Shown here in pieces: positions 14,279-34,597 of a DNA stretch of 34,803 nucleotides; the first letter of the stretch is position 1, and every line of letters starts with the position of its first letter. Made by a program: the position numbers and the translations under genes. Source of the DNA: Verrucomicrobiia bacterium (GTDB taxonomy: Bacteria > Verrucomicrobiota > Verrucomicrobiia > Verrucomicrobiales > Akkermansiaceae); assembly GCA_947462875.1 (NCBI GenBank), contig CANHQJ010000032.1, forward strand, positions 1 to 34,803, given 5' to 3'. Below the pieces are notes generated by a model. It saw only the letters and a program-made list of their open reading frames with translations. It had not been told where the DNA came from and searched no databases.

Positions 14279-14355
14279 TGGCGGAGCGGACGGGACTTGA
14301 ACCCGCGGCCTCCAACGTGACAGGCTGGCGCTCTAACCAACTGAGCTACCGCTCC
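14279..14355 (-). tRNA. tRNA-Asp, anticodon GTC
   Basis: The minus strand gives a complete 77-nt cloverleaf. The acceptor stem GGAGCGG pairs with CCGCTCC. The D arm is GCTC-AGTTGGTTA-GAGC. The anticodon stem CCAGC/GTTGG encloses loop CTGTCAC, so the anticodon is GTC (Asp). The T arm is GCGGG-TTCAAGT-CCCGT. Discriminator G and an encoded CCA end follow. An upstream promoter and a downstream terminator flank it, so it is a single-gene transcription unit. Confidence 0.96.
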
Positions 14356-22151: not shown

Positions 22152-23020
22152 ACATTGTCGTCACGGGCAGCAACGGACGCGTCGGCGGCGCGCTCGTGGA
22201 TCACTTGCGCGGTGCCGGCCACAAGGTGATACCCCTGTGCCGTCAGGATCTTGATCTCGCACACTTGCCCGCGCTGCGTGAGGCGCTGGAATCACTTGAA
22301 TACGATGCGTGGATCAATCCCGCCGCCATGAGTTCGCCGGATCAGTGCGAGCGCGATCCCGCCCTCTGCCATACCGTCAATGCCACCGCGCCCGCGCTGA
22401 TGGCGTATGTGTGCCGCAAGCGCGATACCTATTTTCTCCATTTCAGCACGGACTATGTTTTCGGCGGCGAGGAAACGGGGAAGCGCGGTGAGGAGGATGA
22501 GGCTCATCCGCTCAATTTCTATGGCAAGAGCAAGCGCGCGGGAGAACTCGCGCTGCTGAGCAGTGGCGCGCGTGCGGCGGTGCTGCGCGTCTCCTGGGTG
22601 TACGGCGCGCGGGTGCCGGCTTTTGTCGAACAATGCATGGCCCGCCTGCAAAACGGCGAGCGCGTGGAAGCCATTGCCGACAAGTGGTCCATCCCCACGG
22701 CGATGCCGGATCTCTGCCGCTGGGTCGAGCATCTGCTCATCACGCAACCAAGCGGCATACTGCACGCTTGCCCTAGCGGCGAGCCGGTGAGTTGGCACGG
22801 CATCGCGGTCGCAGTGCATGAGATCATGCGGAAAAACGGACTGCTCGATGGCGATGCGGAAATCGTGCCCACGGCTTTGGCGGATGCCGGTCATTTCCTC
22901 GCGCGCCGTCCCATTCATACCGCGATGGAAAACCAACGTCTTTCCTCACTTCTGCCGCATCCCATCGCCGACTGGCGCGAGGCACTGGAACGCGTGATCG
23001 GGGCGAACAAGCGCGGTTAG
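22148..23020 (+). CDS. RmlD-type sugar nucleotide reductase (extended SDR)
   Basis: A 290-residue NAD(P)-dependent reductase of the dTDP-4-dehydrorhamnose reductase family. The start is NIVVTGSNGRVGGALVDHL, carrying the glycine-rich cofactor site TGxxGxxG. INPAAMSSPDQCERDPALCHTVNATA corresponds to the family's INAAAYTxVD segment, LHFSTDYVFGG holds the STDYVFDG motif, and YGKSKRAGE has the catalytic Tyr-x3-Lys. The protein thus reduces a 4-keto sugar nucleotide or acts on a related substrate; no rml genes surround it, so the rhamnose pathway is not assured. The GTG at 22148 is the start because it overlaps the upstream stop. Its TAG stop shares bases with the ftsW stop on the other strand. Confidence 0.85.
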   Translation: MNIVVTGSNGRVGGALVDHLRGAGHKVIPLCRQDLDLAHLPALREALESLEYDAWINPAAMSSPDQCERDPALCHTVNATAPALMAYVCRKRDTYFLHFSTDYVFGGEETGKRGEEDEAHPLNFYGKSKRAGELALLSSGARAAVLRVSWVYGARVPAFVEQCMARLQNGERVEAIADKWSIPTAMPDLCRWVEHLLITQPSGILHACPSGEPVSWHGIAVAVHEIMRKNGLLDGDAEIVPTALADAGHFLARRPIHTAMENQRLSSLLPHPIADWREALERVIGANKRG

Positions 23021-24168
23021 AGTTTCATCGGCACCGGTGTGGGAATGCAGGCCTCGGATTCATCGCGGGCGCGGAGCTGAGTCGAGCGATTCACGCACAG
23101 CAACAAGGCCACCGACCAGAGGGAGAACATCAGGTTGGTGCCGCCGTAGCTCACAAAGGGCAGCGGCAGACCGGCGTTGGGAAATTTCCCGACCGTGACG
23201 CTGATATTGATCATGGCGGGGAGCAACAGCATCATCGTCACGCCGATCGCCAGGGCCCGGCCGAAGACATCCGGCGCATTCAAGGCCACAAGAAACCCAC
23301 CGATGCCCAGCGCCACGTAGCACAACACCACGCCCAGCGTGCAGTAGAGCCCGCATTCCTCGCCGATGACAGGAAAGATGAAGTCGGTATGCGCTTCGGG
23401 GAGATAGCCGTGTTTTTCCACGCCATTGCCCAGGCCCACGCCCTCCGGTCCGCCATTGCCAAAGGCCAGCAACGAGCGCCATTGCTGGCGATTGGTGTCC
23501 TGGTATTCCTTGAGATTTTCTTCCAGGTGCATCCAGGCGTCGATCCGCTCGCGGCGGGTCTCATCCTTCATCACCAGGGTGTAGCCGAGGAATCCCGCCA
23601 GACCGATGACAGGAAACAGAAACCGCGCTCTCACGCCCACACAGAAAAACAATGCCGCGCACGCCAGGCCCAGCGCGAATGCCGTATCCACATCCTTCTC
23701 ACACAAAATCAGCAACACCGGCACACCCGCGACAATGCCGGGATAGGCAAAGCCCTTGAACAAAGTCCGCACCTCCGTGGCATAGCGGGCATACCATGCC
23801 GCGAGACCGAGCAAAGTCGTGATCTTGCCGATTTCCGATGCCTGGAACTGCGGCAGTCCGGGAAATTTCACCCATCGTTTCGCGCCATTCACCTCGATGC
23901 CGAAAGGCGGGATGTAGCATAATGCCAATAAAACGACTCCTCCTAAAAAGACCCATGGTGCGAACTTGCGCAAGAGTTCCGGCTTCAGCAGATAAACGAC
24001 CACGCCGCCCACCAGGGCCATCACCAGAATCTTCGCCTGCTTGCTCACCAGCAAATGCGGTTGCTCCATGCCATTCGCCCAGTAGCTCGTGCTCGCGAGC
24101 ATGATCATCCCCAGAGCTACGAGGAGCCCCACGGAAATCAGGATCAAATTGGCGGCGAGTCGCGGCAT
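23017..24168 (-). CDS. ftsW: SEDS-family lipid II glycan polymerase/division protein FtsW
   Basis: A 383-residue membrane protein with about ten helices, the SEDS peptidoglycan glycosyltransferase that works with the division PBP. Signatures are VNGAKRWVKFPGLPQFQASEIGK, CEKDVDTAFALGLA (the conserved Asp region, with VDT in place of the usual LGT), PEAHTDFIFPVIGEECGL and NAGLPLPFVSYGGTNLMFSL. It is last in the dcw run, with its start overlapping the LysM stop by one base (TGATG); a TTG one codon earlier (24171) is open but the ATG is preferred. FtsW rather than RodA is chosen because of the cluster. murG and murC do not follow; instead the gene meets a convergent reductase gene. Confidence 0.92.
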   Translation of the reverse strand: MPRLAANLILISVGLLVALGMIMLASTSYWANGMEQPHLLVSKQAKILVMALVGGVVVYLLKPELLRKFAPWVFLGGVVLLALCYIPPFGIEVNGAKRWVKFPGLPQFQASEIGKITTLLGLAAWYARYATEVRTLFKGFAYPGIVAGVPVLLILCEKDVDTAFALGLACAALFFCVGVRARFLFPVIGLAGFLGYTLVMKDETRRERIDAWMHLEENLKEYQDTNRQQWRSLLAFGNGGPEGVGLGNGVEKHGYLPEAHTDFIFPVIGEECGLYCTLGVVLCYVALGIGGFLVALNAPDVFGRALAIGVTMMLLLPAMINISVTVGKFPNAGLPLPFVSYGGTNLMFSLWSVALLLCVNRSTQLRARDESEACIPTPVPMKL

Positions 24169-24980
24169 CAATGCTGTTGATTGGGAATACGGAGAACCTG
24201 GCCGATTTTAAGCGACTTGTCATTTTTGATGCCATTGCTGCTCATCAGCAGGTCCACGGAAATTTTGTGCGCGCGGGCGATCTGATAGAACGTGTCACCC
24301 TTGCGCACCTTGTAGGTTTTGCCGGAAGCACCGTTTTCCTCGATCACAGGTGTCGCACGCGGTGCCGTTTCCAGATCGAAATTCGGCCGCACGAGAAGCG
24401 CGCGCGGGGATGGCCCATCGGGCTTGCCGCCATCGCGCAGGCGCCGCATTTCCTCCGGCTCCAGCGCCACGATCTCGCGCGGCGGCACACGCAGCACCAG
24501 ACCAGAGCATAAATTCACGTTGTTGTTCGCCGTTCGAAGAGCCTGCTCGCTGATGTTCCATTTGCGTGCGATCGAGAGATACGTATCACCCGCGAGCACC
24601 ATGTGCCTGTCATCGCCGCGCTGGATTTGCGGCAGATCGGTCATGCTGGCCAGTGCCGTGGAACCGAGATTCGGGCGTTCGGTGCTCACCGCCGCCGCCG
24701 CGGCGGCCAATGGTTTCTGCGAGGGAGCTGGTCCGCCGGGATCCTGCGTCAGATTGCGATTTTCAAAATAGCGCTGCGCAAAAAAGCCGGCGATGCCGAT
24801 GACGTGGACCAGGGCGATCACGATCAAAACGCGCCCGACGTTCATGCGCGGAATATCGCCATCGAGGTCAGCGGGATTCGCGGCTGCCGTCGCGGCGGGC
24901 CGCTTGATCTTCGCATGCAGGGTGCGGAACAAGCCCCTTTTCAGAGGTTGGCGTTTCACGGGTAATTCTCGAGGTTTCAT
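24168..24980 (-). CDS. Membrane-anchored protein with two LysM domains
   Basis: A 270-residue protein. A basic cytoplasmic tail (residues 1-45) is followed by one membrane helix (VLIVIALVHVIGIAGFFAQRYF, about 50-71). The first LysM domain covers about 125-170 (HMVLAGDTYLSIARKWNISEQAL, then NLCSGLVLRVP) and the second 223-270 (TYKVRKGDTFYQIARAHKI, SLKIGQVLRIP). LysM binds the N-acetylglucosamine part of peptidoglycan. The gene lies between murD (11 nt upstream) and ftsW (1-nt overlap), where other phyla carry no LysM gene, so it may tether or time the septal synthase. No catalytic domain is seen. Confidence 0.85.
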   Translation of the reverse strand: MKPRELPVKRQPLKRGLFRTLHAKIKRPAATAAANPADLDGDIPRMNVGRVLIVIALVHVIGIAGFFAQRYFENRNLTQDPGGPAPSQKPLAAAAAAVSTERPNLGSTALASMTDLPQIQRGDDRHMVLAGDTYLSIARKWNISEQALRTANNNVNLCSGLVLRVPPREIVALEPEEMRRLRDGGKPDGPSPRALLVRPNFDLETAPRATPVIEENGASGKTYKVRKGDTFYQIARAHKISVDLLMSSNGIKNDKSLKIGQVLRIPNQQH

Positions 24981-24991
24981 ATAGAGTGTTG

Positions 24992-26293
24992 TTAGTGGAG
25001 TTGTTGGACAAGCTGACGGAAGGTATCGCCGCGGTGTTCGTAACCGCGGAATTGATCAAAGGAAGACGTGCCGGGAGAAAAGAGAATCGTGGAGCCACGC
25101 GGGGCAAGCTTGCGTGCGGTGGCGATGGCTTCCTCCAGCGACGCGACGACGGTGGTGGGCACACCTTGCGCCAACACCTTGCCCAGCGGCCCGGCGATTT
25201 GGCCGAAGGTCACCGCGGCGATGGCTTTTTGCTGAAGCAGCGGCACGACGGGGGTGTAGTCGAGGCCTTTTTCCTTGCCGCCGGCGATCAGCACGACGGG
25301 ACGCGTTTGGGAACGCAGGGCGCTTTCCAGCGCATGCAGGTTGGTGGCTTTCGAGTCATTGAGATACTCCACGCCATCGAGCGTGCGCACCAGTTCGCAG
25401 CGGTGCGGCGGCGGCACGTAATCGGCAAAGGCTGCCTTCCAATCGAGCGGTCTCCCGAATTCCGAACACGCCGCCATGGCGGCCATGATGTTTTCGGCAT
25501 TGTGCAGCCCGCGCAGGCAGGTGTCGTGCTCCACGTGCAGCATGGTTTGCCCCGCGTGCTCGATGGTGATGCCATTCGATGTCCAGTCGCTCTCCTCGCT
25601 CTCGGTGGAAAAAGTCACCACCTTTCCCGATAGAGTCGGCAAATTTTCGCCACGGCGCACCACCGCCACAGAATCCGCATCCTGGTTTTCAAAGATACGC
25701 AATTTCGCGTTGTGATAGCTTTCGACAGTTGGGTAGCGATCCATGTGATCCGGCGCGAAGTTCAGCCACACCGCGACGTGAGGCTTGAAGCGATCGATCG
25801 TCTCCAACTGAAAGGAACTCGCTTCTAACGAAATCACTTCCGGCATCGGTTCCTCCATCACCACCTCGGCGAGCGGTTTGCCATAATTGCCGCAGGGCAC
25901 GCAGGAGATGCCATTGACCGTAAAGATGTGGCTGATGATCTCGGTGGTCGTCGTTTTTCCGTTCGTCCCCGTGATGGCAATGGTGAATCCCGGATAATAA
26001 TTCCAAGCGAATTCCATCTCGCCAACGACCTTGCCCGCCTGTTGCGAAAAGGCTCGCACCAGCGGACCGTAGGTGTCGATCCCCGGACTCACGATCAACA
26101 GATCGCAGCGCACCGATGCACCCGTCTCCACGGTGGCACGGGGATGAGTGCTCACGGCATCGGAAAATCCCGTGATCGTTTCCGCCTCATCATACACCGA
26201 TACCGACGCGCCTTCACGCAAGGCCAAGGCCGCGGCCGCGCGACCGCTGCGTCCCGCGCCGAGAATTACGACTGATTTTCCTGTGAGTGTCAT
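24992..26293 (-). CDS. murD: UDP-N-acetylmuramoylalanine--D-glutamate ligase
   Basis: A 433-residue cytoplasmic ligase that adds D-glutamate to UDP-MurNAc-L-Ala with ATP. VVILGAGRSGRAAA opens the UDP-binding domain, GFTIAITGTNGKTTTTEII is the ATP P-loop, ISLEASSFQLETI and WLNFAPDHMDRY hold the metal and carbamylated region, HRCELVRTLDGVEYLNDSKATN is the C-terminal domain start, and AGGKEKGLDYTPV closes the motif set. Length is typical. The ATG overlaps the mraY stop by ATGA. Confidence 0.96.
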   Translation of the reverse strand: MTLTGKSVVILGAGRSGRAAAALALREGASVSVYDEAETITGFSDAVSTHPRATVETGASVRCDLLIVSPGIDTYGPLVRAFSQQAGKVVGEMEFAWNYYPGFTIAITGTNGKTTTTEIISHIFTVNGISCVPCGNYGKPLAEVVMEEPMPEVISLEASSFQLETIDRFKPHVAVWLNFAPDHMDRYPTVESYHNAKLRIFENQDADSVAVVRRGENLPTLSGKVVTFSTESEESDWTSNGITIEHAGQTMLHVEHDTCLRGLHNAENIMAAMAACSEFGRPLDWKAAFADYVPPPHRCELVRTLDGVEYLNDSKATNLHALESALRSQTRPVVLIAGGKEKGLDYTPVVPLLQQKAIAAVTFGQIAGPLGKVLAQGVPTTVVASLEEAIATARKLAPRGSTILFSPGTSSFDQFRGYEHRGDTFRQLVQQLH

Positions 26294-27483
26294 CGGATTT
26301 TCAAAAGGGCTAAACCAAACAAAGCGAGCATCAGCGAGAGCAACCAGAAGCGGATGATCACCTGGCTCTCATGCCAACCGCCCAGCTCGAAGTGATGGTG
26401 GATCGGCGACATGCGGAAGATGCGTTTTTTTCTCGTCTTGAAACTCGCCACTTGCAGGATCACGGACATCGCCTCCATCACAAAAACCCCGCCGATGATG
26501 ACCAGCAGCAGCTCCTGCTTCGTCGCGATCGCCGCCGAGCCGAGCGCGCCACCGATCGCCAGAGATCCGGTATCGCCCATGAAGACTTTCGCCGGGTGGC
26601 AGTTGAACCACAGGAAACCCAGCCCCGCGCCGACCAGCGCCATGAGAAACACCGCGAGCTCGCCGATGTACTGGTTGTGCGGAATCACCAGATAATCCGT
26701 GGCGAGGAAAAAATGCCCCGCCAGGTACGCCAGCATCGAGTAGGCCAGCGCCGTGGTGATGGTGCAGCCGGTGGCGAGCCCATCGAGACCATCCGTCAGG
26801 TTCACGGCATTCGAGCAGCCGATGATGATCAGCGCGAAAAACGGGATGATCAACCAACCGAGATGGAAAAGAGGCGTTTTGAAAAGCGGGAAACAAATGG
26901 CGTCAATGCCGATCATTTCCTTGCCTAACTGAAATCCGTGCGACGCATCGCCGAAGCCGGAAATTTCCTTTTTGAAATAAAGGAAGCAGGCGGCGATCAG
27001 GGCGATGATCAATTGCCAGAACAGTTTTTGCCGGCTGCTGAGACCATCGGATTTTTTCTCCTTCACCTTCTTGTAGTCATCGCAGAAACCTAACAACCCG
27101 CAGGCGCCCATGGTGCAGGCGCAAACCGCGACAAACGGGTTGAGCGGATTGGCGCAGAGCAGAGTCGCCAGCAGCACCGAACCCAGGATCATCACGCCGC
27201 CCATCGTGGGAGTGCCGATTTTTCCGCCGTGCAGCTCTGCCAGCTTGTGCACCTCCGCCGCCGTGCGGATCGGTTGGCCGAGCTTCAACGAGATCAATTT
27301 CCGGATCACGCGCGGTCCTATCATCAGGCTGATGCTGAACGCCAGCAAGCAGGCCACGGCCGCGCGGAAGGTGATGTAGCGGAACAAATTCAGCGCGTCG
27401 AAGGTATGCGCCCAGCCAAGATCACCGCTGGCTTTTTCCGCCTCGTGCGCCTCTTTCCAAAATTGATAGATCCAGTATAACAT
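26290..27483 (-). CDS. mraY: Phospho-N-acetylmuramoyl-pentapeptide transferase
   Basis: A 397-residue integral membrane enzyme of about ten helices that joins UDP-MurNAc-pentapeptide to undecaprenyl phosphate, forming lipid I. Diagnostic motifs are GTPTMGGVMIL, GFCDDYKKVKEKKSDGLS (catalytic Asp pair), NAVNLTDGLDGLATG, FMGDTGSLAIGGALG and SPIHHHFELGGWHE. The length slightly exceeds the 360 residues of E. coli MraY because of a longer N-terminal part. The start shares one base with the murF stop (TGATG); its stop overlaps murD. Confidence 0.97.
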   Translation of the reverse strand: MLYWIYQFWKEAHEAEKASGDLGWAHTFDALNLFRYITFRAAVACLLAFSISLMIGPRVIRKLISLKLGQPIRTAAEVHKLAELHGGKIGTPTMGGVMILGSVLLATLLCANPLNPFVAVCACTMGACGLLGFCDDYKKVKEKKSDGLSSRQKLFWQLIIALIAACFLYFKKEISGFGDASHGFQLGKEMIGIDAICFPLFKTPLFHLGWLIIPFFALIIIGCSNAVNLTDGLDGLATGCTITTALAYSMLAYLAGHFFLATDYLVIPHNQYIGELAVFLMALVGAGLGFLWFNCHPAKVFMGDTGSLAIGGALGSAAIATKQELLLVIIGGVFVMEAMSVILQVASFKTRKKRIFRMSPIHHHFELGGWHESQVIIRFWLLSLMLALFGLALLKIR

Positions 27484-28841
27484 CAGTCGTTGGGGAAAAC
27501 TTGTTTCATCACGCGCTCCATCGCGGCGGTTCGGCTGCCTTTGAAAAACACCACATCGCCTGCCTGCAACCGCGCGGTGAGGAAGGCGGCCGCTTCTTCC
27601 TGTGTGGCGAAATGCAGGGCTGTGGGTCCCGCGTGCCGCGAGATGAGATCGGCATCCTCACCCACGGTGATCGTTTGCAAGGACAAGCGCGCCGCGCACT
27701 CGCCGACCCGCTGTCCGCCTTCCGCGGCGTGTTCACCGAGCTCGCCCATGCGGCCGAGCACGGCGTAGCGTTTGCCGCTCGCTGCCTCGCGGGCGAGGGT
27801 TTCCAGGCCGGCGATCATCGACTCGGGATTCGCATTGTAGGTGTCGTCAAAAACGGTGATGCCGCGACTGACAAAACGGCGCAAGCGTCCGGTGGTCAGG
27901 CTGGCCTGGCCGAGACCGCGCGCGATTTGATCGACGGAGAGTCCGCACAAGTATCCTGCCGCCGCCGCCAGCAGCGCGTTCGCCACCATGTGCCGTCCGG
28001 CGACGGGCAGATCGACTTTCGCCGAGGCCTTGCCGCAGACCAACAGGAATTTCATGTGCCCCGCTTCCTCGCGCACATCCGTGGCGCGCACGACATCGTT
28101 TTCGCCACCGGTGCTCATGAAGCGCGCGCGCGTGAGGCTGCGGATCAGGGGCAGAAAGTCACAATCGTGAGGCACGATGAGCGTCTCGTTTTCCGTGAGC
28201 CTGGCCGCGATGGAGGCTTTTTCCCGCGCGATGTTTTCGCGTGTGCCGAGAAACTCGATGTGACTGGAGCCGATGTTGGTGATGATGCAGATTTGCGGCC
28301 TGGCGATGGCGGCGAGTGGTGCGATTTCGCCGGCATGGTTCATGCCCATCTCGTAGACGGCGGCCTGATGCGACTCGCGCGTTTCCAGCACCGTGAGCGG
28401 CAGGCCGATGTGATTGTTCAGGTTCCCGCGCGTGGCACAGGTGGAAAATTTCTGCGAAAGCACCGCGGCGGTGAAATCCTTGGTGCTGGTTTTTCCGTTA
28501 GATCCTGTCAGGCCAATCACATGCAAGTCGAGCTGCGCGCGCCACCAGGCGGCGAGCTGTTGCAGTGCGGCGAGGGTGTCATCGACCAACAACACCGCGC
28601 CGCCGTGGATCATCGCGCCCGACCACTGCGAAACCACGACAACGGCGGCACCTTGTTGCAGAGCTTGTTCGGCAAAGGCATTGGCATCGAAATTTTCTCC
28701 CTTGAGCGCGAAGAACACACACCCTGCCACCAGCTTGCGCGTGTCCGTGCAAACGCCCGCATGCGCCCAAGCGGCCGCGTCACCGGCGACCAATGTCGCG
28801 CCGATGAGGGCCGTGAGTTCTTGTGCGGTGAGGGCTTTCAT
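27483..28841 (-). CDS. murF: UDP-N-acetylmuramoyl-tripeptide--D-alanyl-D-alanine ligase
   Basis: A 452-residue cytoplasmic ligase that completes the pentapeptide by adding D-Ala-D-Ala. The N-terminal domain has DTRKLVAGCVFFALKGENFD, the P-loop is VIGLTGSNGKTSTKDF, and YEMGMNHAGEIAPLAAIARP, NIGSSHIEFLGTRENIA and FDDTYNANPESMIAGLETL are MurF-specific. The C-terminus ends VFFKGSRTAAMERV, the usual MurF finish. Three bases separate it from murE. ddl, which makes the D-Ala-D-Ala substrate, is not in the window. Confidence 0.96.
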   Translation of the reverse strand: MKALTAQELTALIGATLVAGDAAAWAHAGVCTDTRKLVAGCVFFALKGENFDANAFAEQALQQGAAVVVVSQWSGAMIHGGAVLLVDDTLAALQQLAAWWRAQLDLHVIGLTGSNGKTSTKDFTAAVLSQKFSTCATRGNLNNHIGLPLTVLETRESHQAAVYEMGMNHAGEIAPLAAIARPQICIITNIGSSHIEFLGTRENIAREKASIAARLTENETLIVPHDCDFLPLIRSLTRARFMSTGGENDVVRATDVREEAGHMKFLLVCGKASAKVDLPVAGRHMVANALLAAAAGYLCGLSVDQIARGLGQASLTTGRLRRFVSRGITVFDDTYNANPESMIAGLETLAREAASGKRYAVLGRMGELGEHAAEGGQRVGECAARLSLQTITVGEDADLISRHAGPTALHFATQEEAAAFLTARLQAGDVVFFKGSRTAAMERVMKQVFPND

Positions 28842-28844
28842 GGC

Positions 28845-30392
28845 TTAGGGATCTTTGCGGCGGGGCTTGTGCGTTTTGCGCGGCGGCAGGGATTCGCGGA
28901 ATTTCGCGGCGGCCACCACGCGATCGCGCAGGGCGATGGTGGCTTCTTTTTTGTCGTCGAAGTCGATCGTGCGATCGGCGAATTGCTGATACGTCTCGTG
29001 CCCTTTGCCCGCGATGAGCACGATGTCTCCCGCACGCGTGGCGGCGATGGTATCGTGAATCGCTTTGGCGCGATCGACAATCGTGACGTGGTGCGTGCCT
29101 CCCATGCCGGAAACGATTTCGCGGATGATGGTTTCGGGATTTTCACTGCGCGGATTGTCGGAGGTGACAACGCAGAAATCGCTGAGCCGGGCGGCGACCT
29201 CGCCCATGAGCGGGCGTTTGCGTTTGTCGCGATCACCGCCGCAGCCGAAGATGGTGAGCAGACGCCCCGGCTCCAACTCACGGAGCGTGCGGCAGGCATT
29301 TTCCAGCGCATCGGGCGTGTGTGCGTAATCGACAAACACCGTCGCGCCGCCGGCATTGCCGACATTTTCCATGCGTCCCGGCACCTGAGTCGCGTTGGCC
29401 ATGAGCGGCACGGAATCGCGCAGGGGAATGTCGCAAGCCGCCGCCGCCGCCAGCACGCCGGCGATATTATAGGCATTGAAGCGTCCGATCAATGGCGCAC
29501 GCACCAGGAACTGGCGGCCTTTGTGATTGAGCTCGAACTCCATGCCGCGCGCCGTTTGCCGCATGTTGTTCATGCGATAGTCACAGTGCACGCCGAAGCC
29601 GAAGGTCCACACCGGCAGCTTGCCCTTGAGCGAGTCCGCCAACTCCGCGCCGTAGGGATCATCGAGATTGATGATGGCGACCGGTTTTTTCCCTAACGGA
29701 TTCGCCGCCACGGCATCGAACCACGCTTTTTTCGCGGCGAAATAATTTTCCATGGTGCCATGGTAATCGAGGTGATCCTGCGTGAGGTTCGTAAAAATAC
29801 ACGCATCGAAGGGAATGCCGGTGACGCGGTGCTGATGGATACCGTGCGAGGAAACTTCCATCGCCACGCCACGGCAGGCGTGATCCGCCATGCGGCGCAG
29901 GATGCCTTGCAGTTCGATGGGTCCGGGCGTGGTGCTGGAGGCGGTCTCCACCGTTTCCCCGTCATCGATGCGCACCGTGCCGAGCATGCCGGCGCGGTGC
30001 CAGATCTGCTTCATCAGGTAGTGTATCAGAAACGCGGTGGTGGTCTTGCCATTGGTGCCGGTGACGCCGCAGAGTTTCATTCCCGCCGCAGGATTTCCGG
30101 CAAGGGCCACGGCGCATTGGGCGAGTGCGTGGCGGGCATCGGACACATGGATCCAGGTCATCGCGTTGCCGAGATCGGCGGGCGGTGCTTTTTCCGAAAC
30201 CACGGCCGCCGCTCCTGCCGCGAGGGCTTTCATCGCGTAGTCATTGCCATCGGCGCTGCTGCCTTTCAATGCCACGAACACGACGCCCGCCTTCGCCTGA
30301 CGCGAGTCATCCGTGACCGCGGCAATGTCGAGATCCGTGGGGCCGGAGACCACGGGGCGTAGGAAGAGGGAGATGAGATCGGAAAGTTTCAT
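28845..30392 (-). CDS. murE: UDP-MurNAc-L-alanyl-D-glutamate--meso-diaminopimelate ligase
   Basis: A 515-residue cytoplasmic ligase that adds the third residue of the stem peptide. The N-terminal domain has TDDSRQAKAGVVFVALKGSSADG, the P-loop is KLCGVTGTNGKTTTAFLI, and METSSHGI-type residues appear as MEVSSHGIHQHRV, followed by FTNLTQDHLDYHGTMENYFAAK. TSDNPRSENPE, near residue 412, holds the DNPR motif found in meso-diaminopimelate-adding enzymes, in contrast to Lys-adding ones. The peptidoglycan of this organism is therefore predicted to contain meso-DAP. Its start overlaps the PBP stop (ATGA). Confidence 0.96.
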   Translation of the reverse strand: MKLSDLISLFLRPVVSGPTDLDIAAVTDDSRQAKAGVVFVALKGSSADGNDYAMKALAAGAAAVVSEKAPPADLGNAMTWIHVSDARHALAQCAVALAGNPAAGMKLCGVTGTNGKTTTAFLIHYLMKQIWHRAGMLGTVRIDDGETVETASSTTPGPIELQGILRRMADHACRGVAMEVSSHGIHQHRVTGIPFDACIFTNLTQDHLDYHGTMENYFAAKKAWFDAVAANPLGKKPVAIINLDDPYGAELADSLKGKLPVWTFGFGVHCDYRMNNMRQTARGMEFELNHKGRQFLVRAPLIGRFNAYNIAGVLAAAAACDIPLRDSVPLMANATQVPGRMENVGNAGGATVFVDYAHTPDALENACRTLRELEPGRLLTIFGCGGDRDKRKRPLMGEVAARLSDFCVVTSDNPRSENPETIIREIVSGMGGTHHVTIVDRAKAIHDTIAATRAGDIVLIAGKGHETYQQFADRTIDFDDKKEATIALRDRVVAAAKFRESLPPRKTHKPRRKDP

Positions 30393-32305
30393 TGATTGGC
30401 AACGGAAGTGGGAATCGGCTCGGTGGGCGTGAGGTGCATGTGCTGGGCGATGCGTGCGGACGCTTTCGCGAAAATCGGTGCGGCGATGGTGCCGCCGTAA
30501 CGCGAGACCTTGGTGGTTTGCGGGTCATCGATGACCACCACGCAGACGAAAGCGGGATCCTTCGCGGGCATCATGCCGGCGAAGGAAACGGTGTAGCGGG
30601 TCTTGAAGTATTTTTTCGTTTCGACGTTGTATTTCTGCGCCGTTCCCGTCTTGCCCGCCACCTCGTATCCGGGCACGGCGGCCTGGAGCGCGGTGCCTTC
30701 CTTGGTGACCACGGAAGTCAGGCACTGGCGCAGCTTTGCGGCGGCATCCGCGCTGATGACCTGGCGCACGACCTCCGGCTGCATCCTTTCGATCGGCGTG
30801 CCGTCGTTGGCGATCACGGCTTGCAAGAGTTGTGGCTTGAGCAGCTTGCCGCCATTGGCAACCGCCGAATAGGCACAGGCCACTTGCAGGGGCGTGACGT
30901 TGACCGCGTAGCCGAAGGTCATGCTGGAGAAAGTGGTCGGGTTGTCCGTTTCGCGGAAATAGCCCTTGACCTCGCCACTGAGCGGCACATCCGTTTTCGC
31001 ACCGAAACCAAAGGCGCGCACGTAATCATAAAACCGCTGCATGCCGAGCTGCGAGGCGATTTTGTAAATGCCGATGTTGCTCGATTTCCCCATCACCCAT
31101 TCCGCAGACAGCGTGCCGTACGGGTGATGATCCTTCAGTTCCAGAGTGCCTTGTTTGTAAAAACCGTTGTGACAATAAATCGACGTGTTAGGCGTGATGA
31201 GTTTCTCATTCAAGGCACCAGCGGCGGCAATCATCTTGAACGTGGAGCCGGGCTCATAGACCATTTGCGTCGCGAAATTGATACCGTTCGTCGCGATGTT
31301 ATCGAGCGTGTTGAGATGGAACGAAGGATAATTCGCCATGCCGAGAATGCCGCCGGTATGAGGGTCCATCACGATCACGCAACCGCGTGGCGCCTCATGC
31401 TCGCGAATGCCGGCGATGAGTTCCTCCTGGATGATGTTCTGGATTTCCATGTCCAGGGTGAGCTGCACGTTCATGCCGGAGCGCGGCGGCAGTGTCACGC
31501 TCGGTTCCGGGGTGATGAGCAAGCCGCGCGCATTGGTGACGCTGGTGCGGTGGCCGTCTTTCCCCGCGAGAATCGGCTCAAGGGCTTTTTCCACACCGAA
31601 GGCACCCACTTCCTTGTCGTAACTGTAGTTGCCCTTGGTGATTTCCTTGATGATGGTATAGCCGACCACATGACTGGCCAGCTCCGGGGAAGCGTAGCGG
31701 CGGCGCGCGGATTTCTCGATGCTGAATCCCTGGATCTTATGGTCATCGATCACGCTCTGCACGCGATCGAAGGTTTCCTCTTCCATGTTGCGCTCGATGA
31801 CGAACCACATGCTCTTGGGATTGTTATCGATGCGCTCGCGCAACTCCTCGCGCTTCAGGCGCAGCGCGGGAGCGAGGTGGCCGATGGCGTAGGCGATATG
31901 TTTCTGCACGAGAAGTTTTTCATCCTGCGTGCGCAGGATTTTTTTCACCAAAGGCCGGAGCTTGTGGCGCTTCGCTTGCTCGGTGAGATTGGTCCAGCCG
32001 GGCTCCACGCTCAGTTCATCCCAGGCGAGAGCGTAGGCGGCGAGCTCGGGATTGTTCAGGGCGTAGCGATCCACGCGGAGCTTGGCCAGTGTGACACTGC
32101 GCGCGATCAGCTCGTCATTGCGATCGAGTATGTGCCCGCGCCCGCCGGGCAGGTACGTCATGGTCGTGTTGAAATTCTGCTCGGCTTCCTGGTAGCGTTT
32201 GCGATTGAAGTACTGGATATCCATCAAGCGCAAGGCAAGCGCACTGAAGCCTGCAACGATGAGCAGGAACAGCAGGGTGCAGCGGCTGTGAAAGGAACGA
32301 ATCAT
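30389..32305 (-). CDS. ftsI: Division-type class B penicillin-binding protein (FtsI/PBP3-like)
   Basis: A 638-residue transpeptidase that cross-links septal peptidoglycan and pairs with FtsW. One membrane helix near the start (LLFLLIVAGFSALALRLM) anchors it. GGRGHILDRNDELIA is the class B opening, HVVGYTIIKE and GAFGVEKALEPIL the pedestal region. The catalytic SxxK is in EPGSTFKMIAAAG (about residue 350), SxN in GKSSNIGIYK (about 408) and KTG in VAGKTGTAQKY (about 551). No C-terminal PASTA domain is present. It starts 3 nt after the FtsL-like stop. Somewhat longer than E. coli FtsI because of an insert around 100-150. Confidence 0.94.
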   Translation of the reverse strand: MIRSFHSRCTLLFLLIVAGFSALALRLMDIQYFNRKRYQEAEQNFNTTMTYLPGGRGHILDRNDELIARSVTLAKLRVDRYALNNPELAAYALAWDELSVEPGWTNLTEQAKRHKLRPLVKKILRTQDEKLLVQKHIAYAIGHLAPALRLKREELRERIDNNPKSMWFVIERNMEEETFDRVQSVIDDHKIQGFSIEKSARRRYASPELASHVVGYTIIKEITKGNYSYDKEVGAFGVEKALEPILAGKDGHRTSVTNARGLLITPEPSVTLPPRSGMNVQLTLDMEIQNIIQEELIAGIREHEAPRGCVIVMDPHTGGILGMANYPSFHLNTLDNIATNGINFATQMVYEPGSTFKMIAAAGALNEKLITPNTSIYCHNGFYKQGTLELKDHHPYGTLSAEWVMGKSSNIGIYKIASQLGMQRFYDYVRAFGFGAKTDVPLSGEVKGYFRETDNPTTFSSMTFGYAVNVTPLQVACAYSAVANGGKLLKPQLLQAVIANDGTPIERMQPEVVRQVISADAAAKLRQCLTSVVTKEGTALQAAVPGYEVAGKTGTAQKYNVETKKYFKTRYTVSFAGMMPAKDPAFVCVVVIDDPQTTKVSRYGGTIAAPIFAKASARIAQHMHLTPTEPIPTSVANQ

Positions 32306-32308
32306 CAG

Positions 32309-32650
32309 TTAGGGACGCAGGGCTTGCTGCGAGACGGCGGGGTTTTTGGCGCGGATCACCTGGATGCGGTTGGAAGGCGTGGAAATCAGATCGCTGCCAT
32401 TGCGCTCCAGTTTTTCGCGCAAGTCATAGCGGGCGAGCTGGCGATCGATTTCGGCCTGGATGCTGGGAATGTCATCCTGCACCAGCGAGGCGATGCGTTT
32501 TTCCGTGGCCTCGATCTCGCGGGCGGTCTGGATTTGCAAATTCCGATAGGTCACATAGGTCACGGCGCCGGTGGTCACGATGGCCACGGCGATGAAAAAA
32601 CTGATCCAGAAAAATGTGTTCGATCGGTGCGTGGTGCGGGTCTGGTTCAT
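32309..32650 (-). CDS. FtsL-like bitopic division protein
   Basis: A 113-residue protein with a short cytoplasmic N-terminus (RTTHRSNTFFW), one membrane helix (ISFFIAVAIVTTGAVTYVTY, about 15-35) and a coiled-coil (LQIQTAREIEATEKRIASLVQDDIPSIQAEIDRQ region, about 38-75). Size, topology and place between rsmH and the PBP gene are those of ftsL, whose sequence is poorly conserved. FtsL would activate FtsW-PBP in the divisome. The start overlaps the rsmH stop by ATGA. Assigned by position and topology more than by sequence. Confidence 0.8.
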   Translation of the reverse strand: MNQTRTTHRSNTFFWISFFIAVAIVTTGAVTYVTYRNLQIQTAREIEATEKRIASLVQDDIPSIQAEIDRQLARYDLREKLERNGSDLISTPSNRIQVIRAKNPAVSQQALRP

Positions 32651-33621
32651 GGGGCGATGAGGTTGCGGTTATTACGCAGGGCGACCCGTAGCTTCGCGCT
32701 ACGGGCCCGGGGGTTCGAGGTGAGTTCGGCTTGCCCTGCGCTTATGGACTTTCGCACCGGCAGGGTGAGGTGGTGCTCCGGGTTATCGCGCGGCGCGGGC
32801 CAGGTGGGGTCATCGATGTAGGGCTTCGCACGATGTTGCAAAAACTGTTTCACCATCCGGTCTTCCAGGCTATGGAAGGTGATCACCAACAATCGGCCAC
32901 CGGGGGCGAGGCATCGCACGGCGGCTTCCAGCGCATCGTGCAGCAGCGACAGCTCCTCGTTGATGCGCATGCGGATCGCCTGAAACGTGCGGGTCGCGGG
33001 ATGGGTGCGGCCATGCCTGCCGAGAGCGGACTCGATGCACGATGCGAGATCTCCCGTGCGGGTGAATGGTGTTTTGCGGCGGCGCTCGGTGATCAAGCTC
33101 GCGATGCGGCGGGCCTGCGGCTCTTCGCCGAACTCGCGCAAGACCTGCACCATTTCCGCCTCGCTGGCGGCGTTGACAAAATCAGCGGCGGTCATCACCG
33201 CGTTCGGCCCCATGCGCATGTCGAGCGGACCGTCTTTCTGAAACGAAAAGCCGCGCTCGGCGCAATCGAGCTGATGCGAGGACACGCCGAGATCCAACAA
33301 AATCCCCTGCACCTGACCCGAGGCGGGCAGGCCGGGATGCTCGGCCATCTGCGAATAGTTCGCCTGAAAAACGTTGAGCTTGTCCGCATAAGCCGAGAGC
33401 CTGCGGGTGGCATACGCGATCGCTTCAGGATCGCGATCGATGCCGAGAACCGTGGCACCTTTTTGCAAAAACAAGGAAGTGTGGCCACCGCCACCGAGGG
33501 TGCCATCGATGATCACATCGCCGGGTTTCGCGTCCATCCATTGATCGACCTCGGCGGGCAAGACAGGAAGATGATATGGCGGGAGAGGAGCCGTCCCTTG
33601 CTCCTCATCCCGCCCAGCCAT
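32647..33621 (-). CDS. rsmH: 16S rRNA (cytosine1402-N4)-methyltransferase RsmH
   Basis: From the ATG at 33621 the protein has 324 residues, the usual RsmH size. YHLPVLPAEVDQWM is the family start, DGTLGGGGHTSLFL is SAM motif I, GILLDLGVSSHQLDCAERGFSF and DGPLDMRMGPNA follow, and RMRINEELSLLHDAL and VITFHSLEDRMVKQF are strongly conserved. The enzyme methylates C1402 of 16S rRNA. The frame is open upstream to 33912, just after the mraZ stop, and beyond. Other starts are ATG 33777 and 33912, the latter giving 421 residues. The upstream stretch and the first 15 residues (MAGRDEEQGTAPLPP) derive from a palindromic repeat present twice in frame, so the original start region has been altered. Confidence 0.93.
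   Translation of the reverse strand: MAGRDEEQGTAPLPPYHLPVLPAEVDQWMDAKPGDVIIDGTLGGGGHTSLFLQKGATVLGIDRDPEAIAYATRRLSAYADKLNVFQANYSQMAEHPGLPASGQVQGILLDLGVSSHQLDCAERGFSFQKDGPLDMRMGPNAVMTAADFVNAASEAEMVQVLREFGEEPQARRIASLITERRRKTPFTRTGDLASCIESALGRHGRTHPATRTFQAIRMRINEELSLLHDALEAAVRCLAPGGRLLVITFHSLEDRMVKQFLQHRAKPYIDDPTWPAPRDNPEHHLTLPVRKSISAGQAELTSNPRARSAKLRVALRNNRNLIAP
33578..33614. repeat. Palindromic repeat, copy 1, inside the 5' end of rsmH
   Basis: GGCGGGAGAGGAGC and GCTCCTCATCCCGCC form a 14-bp stem with a single bulged A around an eight-base loop (CGTCCCTT). With the following CAGCCATAAGAAA the unit is nearly identical to copy 2, with one difference in about 50 bases. Read in the rsmH frame it encodes FLMAGRDEEQGTAPLPP. 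Confidence 0.85.
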
Positions 33622-33733
33622 AAGAAAAGTGGTTGGCTTGCGATCGGTGATGCGCTGATCCAGCGCCACATCAGGCATCGCGGGTGCCGCAGCCATGGCC
33701 CAGGCCCGGGCTGGCATCACGGCGGAAAAAATT

Positions 33734-33770
33734 GGCGGGAGAGGAGCCGTCCCTTGCTCCTCGTCCCGCC
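33734..33770. repeat. Palindromic repeat, copy 2, between mraZ and rsmH
   Basis: The same stem as copy 1, 156 bases (52 codons) away, thus in the same reading frame. Position 33763 has G where copy 1 has A. A short unrelated palindrome, CCTGC-GTCC-GCAGG, lies further upstream at 33864-33877. Confidence 0.85.
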
Positions 33771-33920
33771 CAGCCATAAGAAAGTTCACCCATGCGAGAG
33801 GCTTTTTTTTTGCCATGCCCGCACCATTCGCTTCCCCCACCAAACGAGCTAAGGCACCACGCACCTGCGTCCGCAGGGTGGTCAAGCTCGTGAATGTGAG
33901 AGGAAATGTCATAAAAAATG

Positions 33921-34382
33921 TTAGAAAATACCCAGATCGCCAAAGGCCTCGTTGACATTGGATGTCTGCTGCTCGAGCACTTTGCCGTAGTCCGCGCTGT
34001 TGAAGATATCGAAATACTTGCCGCGCCCGACCATCGTCACCGTGGACTCCGCCTCTAGATTGGCGCGCAGGCTCCATTCTTTAGGAATGAGCAGCTTGCC
34101 CTGATTGTTCACGCTCACGGGCAGAATCCCGGCATGCAGCAATTCCAAAGCCTCGCGGATCTGACCCATGCTGCGATTCGGATACTCGCGAATGTCGCGC
34201 TCCATGTCCGCAAAGGCCTCCAAGGTCAGCACCCGCACGCAGGGAATGCCATAGCGCTTGGATTGCTGCAAAATCAACTGCGCCCCTTCTTCCGGACGCC
34301 AGTGCGCAGGGATGGCCACCCGATATTTCGGGTCCATCTTGTGCTCCTGGAAGCCGTTGAATTGGGAAAGGACGATGCTCAT
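33921..34382 (-). CDS. mraZ: Transcriptional regulator MraZ
   Basis: A 153-residue protein with two SpoVT/AbrB-like swapped-hairpin DNA-binding halves: FNGFQEHKMDPKYRVAIPAHWR at the start and LPVSVNNQGKLLIPKEWSLRANL in the second half; the D-x-K-x-R-V-x-I-P and N-x-x-G-K-L-x-I-P motifs are the family signatures. MraZ forms a ring, binds direct repeats at its own promoter and represses the dcw operon. It heads the cluster here, as in most bacteria. Two heptamers ATACGCT spaced by 10 bp overlap its start codon. No Shine-Dalgarno sequence is visible before the ATG at 34382. Confidence 0.93.
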   Translation of the reverse strand: MSIVLSQFNGFQEHKMDPKYRVAIPAHWRPEEGAQLILQQSKRYGIPCVRVLTLEAFADMERDIREYPNRSMGQIREALELLHAGILPVSVNNQGKLLIPKEWSLRANLEAESTVTMVGRGKYFDIFNSADYGKVLEQQTSNVNEAFGDLGIF

Positions 34383-34397
34383 ACGCTATAATACGCT
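34381..34397 (-). promoter_or_regulatory. Tandem heptamers at the mraZ start, possible MraZ operator
   Basis: On the minus strand AGCGTAT occurs twice with exactly one 10-bp helical turn between the copies (34397-34391 and 34387-34381), the second running into the ATG. MraZ is known to bind short direct repeats with about 10-bp period near its promoter. The known E. coli box is TGGGN, so this assignment is by layout only. TATTAT (34393-34388) between them could also act as a -10 box. Confidence 0.35.
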
Positions 34398-34409
34398 TGC
34401 GTGCATTTC

Positions 34410-34438
34410 AGTACACCTGAAAAACTTTTCGAGGTCAA
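34410..34438 (-). promoter_or_regulatory. Predicted promoter of the dcw cluster
   Basis: On the minus strand TTGACC (34438-34433) and TGTACT (34415-34410) are 17 nt apart; 27 nt lie between the -10 box and the mraZ ATG. The -35 box matches at five of six positions, the -10 box at four. Confidence 0.45.
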
Positions 34439-34597
34439 ACATTTTTTACGGGTACACTTCATTTTTTTTAGCCTTTTCCCGCGGGCATCGATTCCGACAA
34501 AAAATCATTGAAAATCAACGACTTACAGAAATTATTTTGCCGGATAATTCAATCAATTTTTCCCGATATTTAAGGTTTCCGAAAAATTTAGCTTGCC

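Follow-up and report, generated by a model that had tools for sequence, protein, structure and literature searches.

A conserved in-frame array of hairpins in the 5' end of rsmH looks like a built-in control element in three verrucomicrobial genera

The stretch of DNA analysed here, called the window, is 34,803 nt long and carries rsmH (mraW) between mraZ and a series of downstream genes which we take to be dcw genes (Table 1). The rsmH start codon, an ATG at position 33912, lies 8 nt after the mraZ stop, while the RsmH domain as recognised by Pfam begins only at residue 114. From this ATG to the conserved YHLPVLP the frame is open for 336 nt (112 codons). The initial annotation of this DNA had also described the stretch between the mraZ stop and the RsmH start as open, which is correct, and had given its length as 290 nt, which is not.

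Table 1. Features of the rsmH region and of the genes downstream, in window coordinates.
Feature	Coordinates	Strand	Evidence or detail
mraZ, 153 aa	33921-34382	minus	Pfam MraZ, 1.9e-07; directly upstream of rsmH
rsmH (mraW), 421 aa with N-terminal extension	32647-33912	minus	Pfam Methyltransf_5, 5e-96, residues 114-411
N-terminal extension of rsmH, 112 codons, open, carries the hairpin array	33577-33912	minus	Pfam: no family
Copy 1, 51-nt type A unit	33733-33783	minus	Stem 33734-33770, loop AAGGGACG 33748-33755, bulged base 33763
Copy 2, 51-nt type A unit	33577-33627	minus	Stem 33578-33614, loop 33592-33599, bulged base 33607
Six-U run, terminator-like, directly 3' of hairpin 1	33726-33731	minus	
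ATG in the rsmH frame at the base of hairpin 2, possible second start in the window's genus	33619-33621	minus	
dcw-type genes downstream of rsmH, same strand	23017-32305	minus	Pfam
PBP transpeptidase	30389-32305	minus	Pfam
MraY-type transferase	26290-27483	minus	Pfam
FtsW-type protein	23017-24171	minus	Pfam
Three Mur ligases		minus	Pfam

Within this extension are two direct repeats of 51 nt, 98% identical and spaced 156 nt apart, and on the minus (gene) strand both encode the peptide FLMAGRDEEQGTAPLPP in the rsmH frame. Each unit folds into a 14-bp stem with one bulged base and an 8-nt loop. The predicted stabilities are -29.4 and -30.8 kcal/mol (z of -3.6 and -3.8), and 0 of 200 shuffles were as stable. 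The near-identical in-frame pair, the shared peptide and the strong hairpins had all been noted in the initial annotation, and all of them hold. Upstream of hairpin 1 there is a run of nine A (window 33803-33811, minus strand; codons GCA AAA AAA AAG), which contains A AAA AAG, a slippery heptamer. By eye, a KKK stretch of A runs is present in 5/9 genomes of the genus, and the run is a possible site of frameshifting or transcription slippage. Elsewhere in the window, a tRNA gene at 14282-14355 on the minus strand is the sole Rfam match at gathering score.

A search of the window's own genus (g1) for the palindrome gave a match in 10/10 genomes. In nine of them the match is the 5' end of rsmH with two hairpins; the tenth, G009, was excluded, as its rsmH contig begins inside the gene and its weak match lies elsewhere. 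Paired in-frame hairpins are thus found in 9/9 genus genomes whose rsmH start is present. The spacing between the two hairpins ranges from 81 to 165 nt and is always a multiple of 3, and both hairpins lie in the rsmH frame. The GGCTGGG of copy 2 starts 43 nt ahead of the conserved core in 8/9 genomes and 55 nt ahead of it in G001. In an alignment of 17 type A units from the nine genomes, 7 of 12 stem pairs have changed on both sides while 99% of cells remain paired, and the covariation is 0.281, compared with 0.156 in shuffles. When partner columns of this alignment were slid by 1-3 positions, pairing fell to 52-65%. Copy 2 of G001 was left out of both this alignment and the covariance model because of poly-G: a run of 17 G replaces its 5' arm (L029/L082). 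The unit may have decayed, or the run may be an error of sequencing or assembly.

The near-identity of the two units in the window seems to be secondary. Copies 1 and 2 are 98-100% alike in the four genomes of the window's sub-clade and 71-79% alike in the five other members of the genus. In the sub-clade a variable bulge codon tracks the genome rather than the copy, and in the five other members the bulge of copy 1 is at a different position. Copy 1 of the sub-clade appears to have been overwritten recently by a unit of the copy-2 type, which would be why the window's units are so alike. As an aside, the 11-mer AAGGGACGGCT, made of the genus loop and its closing bases (window 33589-33599), also occurs in the 16S rRNA of L199 and L202. 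It has no counterpart in the loops of related genera, and the match is probably chance.

Two related genera, g7 and g13, with members named Luteolibacter and Haloferula, carry longer arrays at rsmH, in which type A hairpins alternate with a second kind, type B. The type A loop in g7 and g13 is UCGGGACA, with a closing pair that is mostly C-G, where the window has AAGGGACG. The type B loop is GGCUGGUUG, with GGCUGGUUU in 14/86 cases, and the window's own genome has no type B match. Across the three genera the array has from 2 to about 10 hairpins, and one genome has 10 by a local folding count. In the type B alignment, which used 37/37 units, 10 of 12 pairs have changed on both sides, 89% are paired, and the covariation is 0.560 versus 0.192 when shuffled. 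The g7/g13 type A alignment used 52 of 70 de-duplicated units, 8 units of the window's genus and 10 doubtful ones having been taken out by hand. The loops are near-invariant while the arms diverge.

Records at the array loci are titled Luteolibacter pohnpeiensis, Luteolibacter marinus, Haloferula sp., Akkermansiaceae and other verrucomicrobial MAGs. From these titles we take the three array-bearing genera to be Akkermansiaceae. In a midpoint-rooted tree of 44 RsmH cores, the 26 array-bearing cores make up one side of a 100/100 branch; the array-bearing genera group together by RsmH core. At nine loci (L169, L172, L179, L188, L193, L194, L148, L171 and L196) RsmH is of the array type, as in g1 or g13. 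The MAG records behind them are titled Akkermansia muciniphila or Prosthecobacter debontii, names that look wrong.

The array seems to belong to one locus only. The initial annotation had likened the units to Rickettsia palindromes inserted in genes and had proposed a genome search for further copies, yet with up to 3 mismatches the 37-base palindrome was found only at its two places in rsmH in the 3.95-Mb genome, and across the three genera confident matches were found only at rsmH, where the array is conserved. A looser half-palindrome pattern with 1 mismatch hit 18 places in the window's own genome, two of which are these units, versus 19 for the reversed control. Covariance models were then scored in seven genomes (six single-contig g7 or g13 members and the window's own) on 150 first-look candidates per genome. 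All 26 type B matches at E of 4.3e-7 or below and all 23 type A matches at E of 2.1e-4 or below lie directly upstream of the RsmH core. Four type B and two type A matches elsewhere in these seven genomes are weaker (E 0.004 to 0.29).

The type A model built from the genus units matched in 21 of 195 family genomes; 12 of these are outside the genus, and 10 of the 12 matches adjoin RsmH while two (G044 and G163) do not. In the order, 288 genomes were searched with the type B model; it matched in 42, and a count by genus places 39 of these in g7 and g13. The remaining three (G180, G255 and G291) are weak, with no RsmH core at their loci. A pattern scan of a wider contig collection found 51 stretches, 26 of which are rsmH loci; 24 of these were assigned by script, and two (L152 and L193) were added on grounds that include the hairpin sequence. 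At the 24 script-assigned loci all matches are in the rsmH frame. The other 25 stretches are mostly from unrelated taxa and, judged by eye only, have no complementary arm. With blastn, no match to the element was found in plasmid and phage collections, so a plasmid or phage origin was rejected, and the idea of a mobile palindrome was rejected because confident matches lie at a single locus, in the seven genomes among 150 first-look candidates each.

Relatives outside the three genera have short or unrelated RsmH extensions without the array. In this survey 15 of 70 loci (in g3, g8, g10, g15 and g16) went unused, as the search pattern found no RsmH core in them. Two of 11 array-less relatives (G020 and G019) also fold better than synonymous shuffles, with z of about -3. 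In g3 (L111:955-1497 and others) RsmH is extended at its N terminus by some 180 unrelated residues, which look like a real protein domain; they had no Pfam match in the one member scanned.

The initial annotation had left open whether RsmH has an N-terminal extension made from repeats, and the comparison supports one. The extension is open in all 32 genomes read (9 g1, 10 g7 and 13 g13; 30 of these loci are the ones closest to the window's RsmH, and two more were added), with openness measured back from the core. Frame 0 is free of stops over 5,146 codons; the two alternative frames have 92 and 81. In each of the 32 genomes the open frame reaches an ATG near the upstream ORF. This ATG lies 4 to 55 nt after the upstream stop in the 31 genomes with a recognised mraZ-length ORF, which was taken as mraZ by length and not by Pfam. 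Judging from these frames, the extension is probably translated. AlphaFold, run on the window's protein with an 11-row alignment, predicts a confident RsmH fold after residue 113 and gives a pLDDT below 50 for residues 26-113, which points to a tail that is probably disordered.

Codon use in the extension suggests that nucleotides rather than amino acids are being kept. The Gly of Gly-Thr is encoded by GGG in 109/114 cases in the extensions, whereas GGG makes up 124 of the 713 Gly codons of the RsmH cores, and the Gly of the type B loop is GGC in 85/86. Folding was compared with synonymous-codon shuffles in 18 of the 32 open-frame genomes. In 16 of the 18 the extension was more stable than 60/60 shuffles (z -2.6 to -8.8). 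The exceptions are G001 (12/60 shuffles as stable, z -1.1) and G157 (1/60, z -1.8), in which the core scored lower than the extension. The z of the core was between -0.9 and +1.0 in 12 of the 18 and between -1.7 and -3.1 in the other six, including all four g7 cores. Synonymous divergence points the same way: among the 25 most similar pairs, five of which repeat a genome under two names, dS of the extension was lower than dS of the first 90 core codons in 20/20 distinct pairs. In the same 25 pairs dN/dS was 0.26-1.05 in the extension versus 0.04-0.18 in the core.

A change of frame separates the hairpin from its peptide. A total of 153 type A-like loops were found in 49 distinct loci, 145 of them in frame 0. 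Six type A hairpins, with 13-19 pairs and in four loci, lie in another frame and encode SGQ instead of LGT; two further frame-2 matches, judged by eye, were not counted as type A hairpins. Since these six hairpins are kept in another frame, the peptide is not what is kept, and the hairpin outlived the peptide change. Taken together, the covarying stems, the near-invariant loops, the low dS and the survival of a frame change show, by comparison of sequences, that the hairpins are selected as nucleic acid. As in cis-regulatory RNAs, the covarying structure is found at a fixed position relative to one gene.

Some of the hairpins are followed by runs of T. Runs of at least four T follow 49% of 84 type B hairpins and 10% of 72 type A hairpins, against a background of 9%. 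By reading of the tails, the type A hairpins with T-runs are all in the window's genus, where a run of 4-6 T lies within 12 nt of copy 1 in 9/9 genomes and at most 2 T follow copy 2 in 9/9. The T-runs are short and often read TTTC. A terminator scan did not list the window's hairpins; its rule calls for a stem without a bulge beside the tail.

Candidate ligands and known RNA families were searched as well. CsrA (PF02599) was found in 0/7 genomes, with 3/14 control genomes positive, and docking of CsrA was therefore rejected. Mimicry of 16S rRNA had been considered from a likeness, seen by eye, to the 3' strand of helix 44, and a profile scan did not support it. The scan covered 16S only, taken from G130 and G053, as the window's own genome assembly has no 16S; of 100 shuffles, 41-96 reached the best type A scores and 4-78 the best type B scores. 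In the G130 16S, with two type A sets, the helix 44 3' strand came out as the 2nd and 4th site, below typical shuffle maxima. No Rfam family was over threshold at the array, and the mraW RNA motif (RF01746) was not matched by cmscan of the window at gathering score or of 33500-34500 at E up to 5. In 33500-34500 there are three sub-threshold Rfam matches (E 0.8 to 2.6), all of which we take to be chance; they include RsmW over copy 2, with 17.3 bits versus a gathering score of 52. An Acido-Lenti-1 RNA just over gathering score was seen at L069:4063-4107, upstream of the rsmH region of G067.

The explanation we favour, to which we give an even chance, is that the array is a cis-acting structured mRNA element in the translated 5' end of rsmH which tunes expression of rsmH and the downstream dcw genes. 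The structure and its constraint can be read from the alignments, while the effect on expression and a ligand are inferred. A ribosome would initiate just after mraZ and translate through the hairpins. The hairpins would form when translation lags behind RNA polymerase, or when some factor binds the fixed loops, and those with U-runs (copy 1 in the window, type B hairpins in g7 and g13) may then serve as weak terminators or pause sites. Termination or pausing would lower expression of rsmH and of the dcw genes downstream. Through the array, expression of the wall and division operon would be coupled to translation, and the loops would offer specific docking sites. The array may best be described as translation-dependent attenuation or pausing within rsmH. 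In a region that is often translated, hairpins would be melted by ribosomes, and a stable ligand-binding role is not obvious. A bolder form of the idea, for which our confidence is tentative, is that the array, with its two alternating hairpin types, is a co-translational RNA sensor of a new class, in which factor-binding loops and folding that depends on ribosome traffic gate rsmH together with the division and wall operon.

Several other explanations were weighed. The palindromes may act as DNA, as hairpins, cruciforms or protein-binding sites for replication, segregation or recombination which happen to lie in rsmH. They are near-perfect and sit at one fixed place in the division gene cluster, and the changes in copy number and the homogenised copies suggest recombination at the array. 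On the sense strand, however, the stems have 105 G-U versus 59 A-C pairs (pooled over five groups, one-sided p 2e-4), an excess that favours sense RNA over DNA and that is seen only weakly when the type A groups are taken one by one (p 0.08-0.12). The loops are also fixed on one strand with a constant orientation relative to the gene, and the T-runs after type B stems are on the sense strand, so we regard a DNA-level element as fairly unlikely. It is unlikely, too, that the repetitive RsmH tail with its LGT and GWLSAR motifs is itself what is selected. The frame that is open in every genome read and the recurring peptides, with nearly all loops in frame 0, speak for such a tail; the synonymous sites that are tighter than in the core, the dN/dS near neutral in many pairs, the near-fixed Gly codons of the motifs, the six hairpins kept in another frame and the low pLDDT speak against it.

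For the window's genus there is the question of which ATG is used. If the true RsmH start were the ATG at the foot of hairpin 2 (33621-33619), the hairpins would be a leader which controls access to it, much as the initial annotation had suggested with hairpins that mask the start. This ATG is kept in 9/9 genus genomes, 15 codons ahead of the conserved core. The frame is nevertheless open further upstream, to an ATG 4-12 nt past the mraZ stop in all nine, and this ATG, which fits every one of them, precedes both hairpins, so that masking of the start as first suggested is not supported. Among 19 de-duplicated type A units of the related genera that have this flank, only two have ATG at the codon matching the hairpin-2 start, and the protein begins MLF after mraZ in 16 of 23 g7 and g13 genomes. 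We consider the downstream start quite improbable. Least probable, and largely contradicted already, is a selfish palindromic repeat that entered rsmH once and then spread locally. It would account for palindromes in frame in a conserved gene, for local multiplication to about 10 hairpins and for homogenisation within genomes, but no confident copies were found elsewhere in the genomes searched, and nearly invariant loops with diverging arms would not be given by homogenisation alone. For Rickettsia-type palindromic elements, presence or absence differs between relatives. The array shares with these elements a palindrome in frame in a host gene; it is not dispersed in many copies, and it is present in every member read of three genera (9/9 genus genomes and 23 g7 and g13 genomes).

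The cis-acting mRNA array can be set beside several known systems. The mraW RNA motif RF01746 is listed for Actinomycetales (PMC2864571) and has been reported at mraW in Corynebacterium glutamicum (PMC3890552). Like the array, it is described as a structured RNA tied to mraW/rsmH and presumed to be a cis regulator (PMC2864571, PMC3890552), but it is an Actinomycetales motif from an intergenic survey (PMC2864571), whereas here there is a translated array of two hairpin types. The Rickettsia palindromic elements (RPEs) are repeats of 105-146 bp that lie in intergenic regions and, joined in frame, within 19 reading frames (PMC2229807). They too are palindromes in frame within conserved genes, but they are dispersed (PMC2229807), and the array is confined to one locus per genome with loops conserved across genera. 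The UpsM 5' leader of Rhodobacter sphaeroides also combines RNA structure with termination at the head of the dcw cluster (PMC5089854). That leader is 268 nt long, is not translated, lies upstream of mraZ and has a Rho-independent terminator (PMC5089854), whereas the array lies inside the open rsmH, downstream of mraZ. In Nematomorpha mitochondria, coding palindromes are likewise inverted repeats in translated sequence whose arms evolve in concert (PMC6649704); those palindromes are in many genes and are long perfect repeats, and the excerpt mentions no fixed loop motif (PMC6649704). Peptide-leader attenuators, mentioned in the same source (PMC6649704), resemble the array in that the position of the ribosome over translated hairpins could control termination. 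The array differs from them in that its hairpins are repeated and lie in the structural gene itself. In peptide-leader attenuators the leader ORF is separate and short.

In a literature search limited to open-licence papers, no report of such an array was found, and it looks like an undescribed control element built into the cell-wall and division operon. Searches for bacterial RNA motifs commonly begin from intergenic regions, as in the survey of 104 RNAs (PMC2864571), and a conserved array that lies in frame is therefore the sort of element that they would miss. The group with the array includes cultured Luteolibacter and Haloferula, and an mraW knockout of Verrucomicrobium spinosum is described as viable (PMC12283558), so mutation tests in the phylum should be feasible. 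How RNA structure and protein coding can share one sequence could be tested cleanly with the array. If it is regulatory, the expression of wall and division genes would be connected through it with ribosome maturation or translation status.
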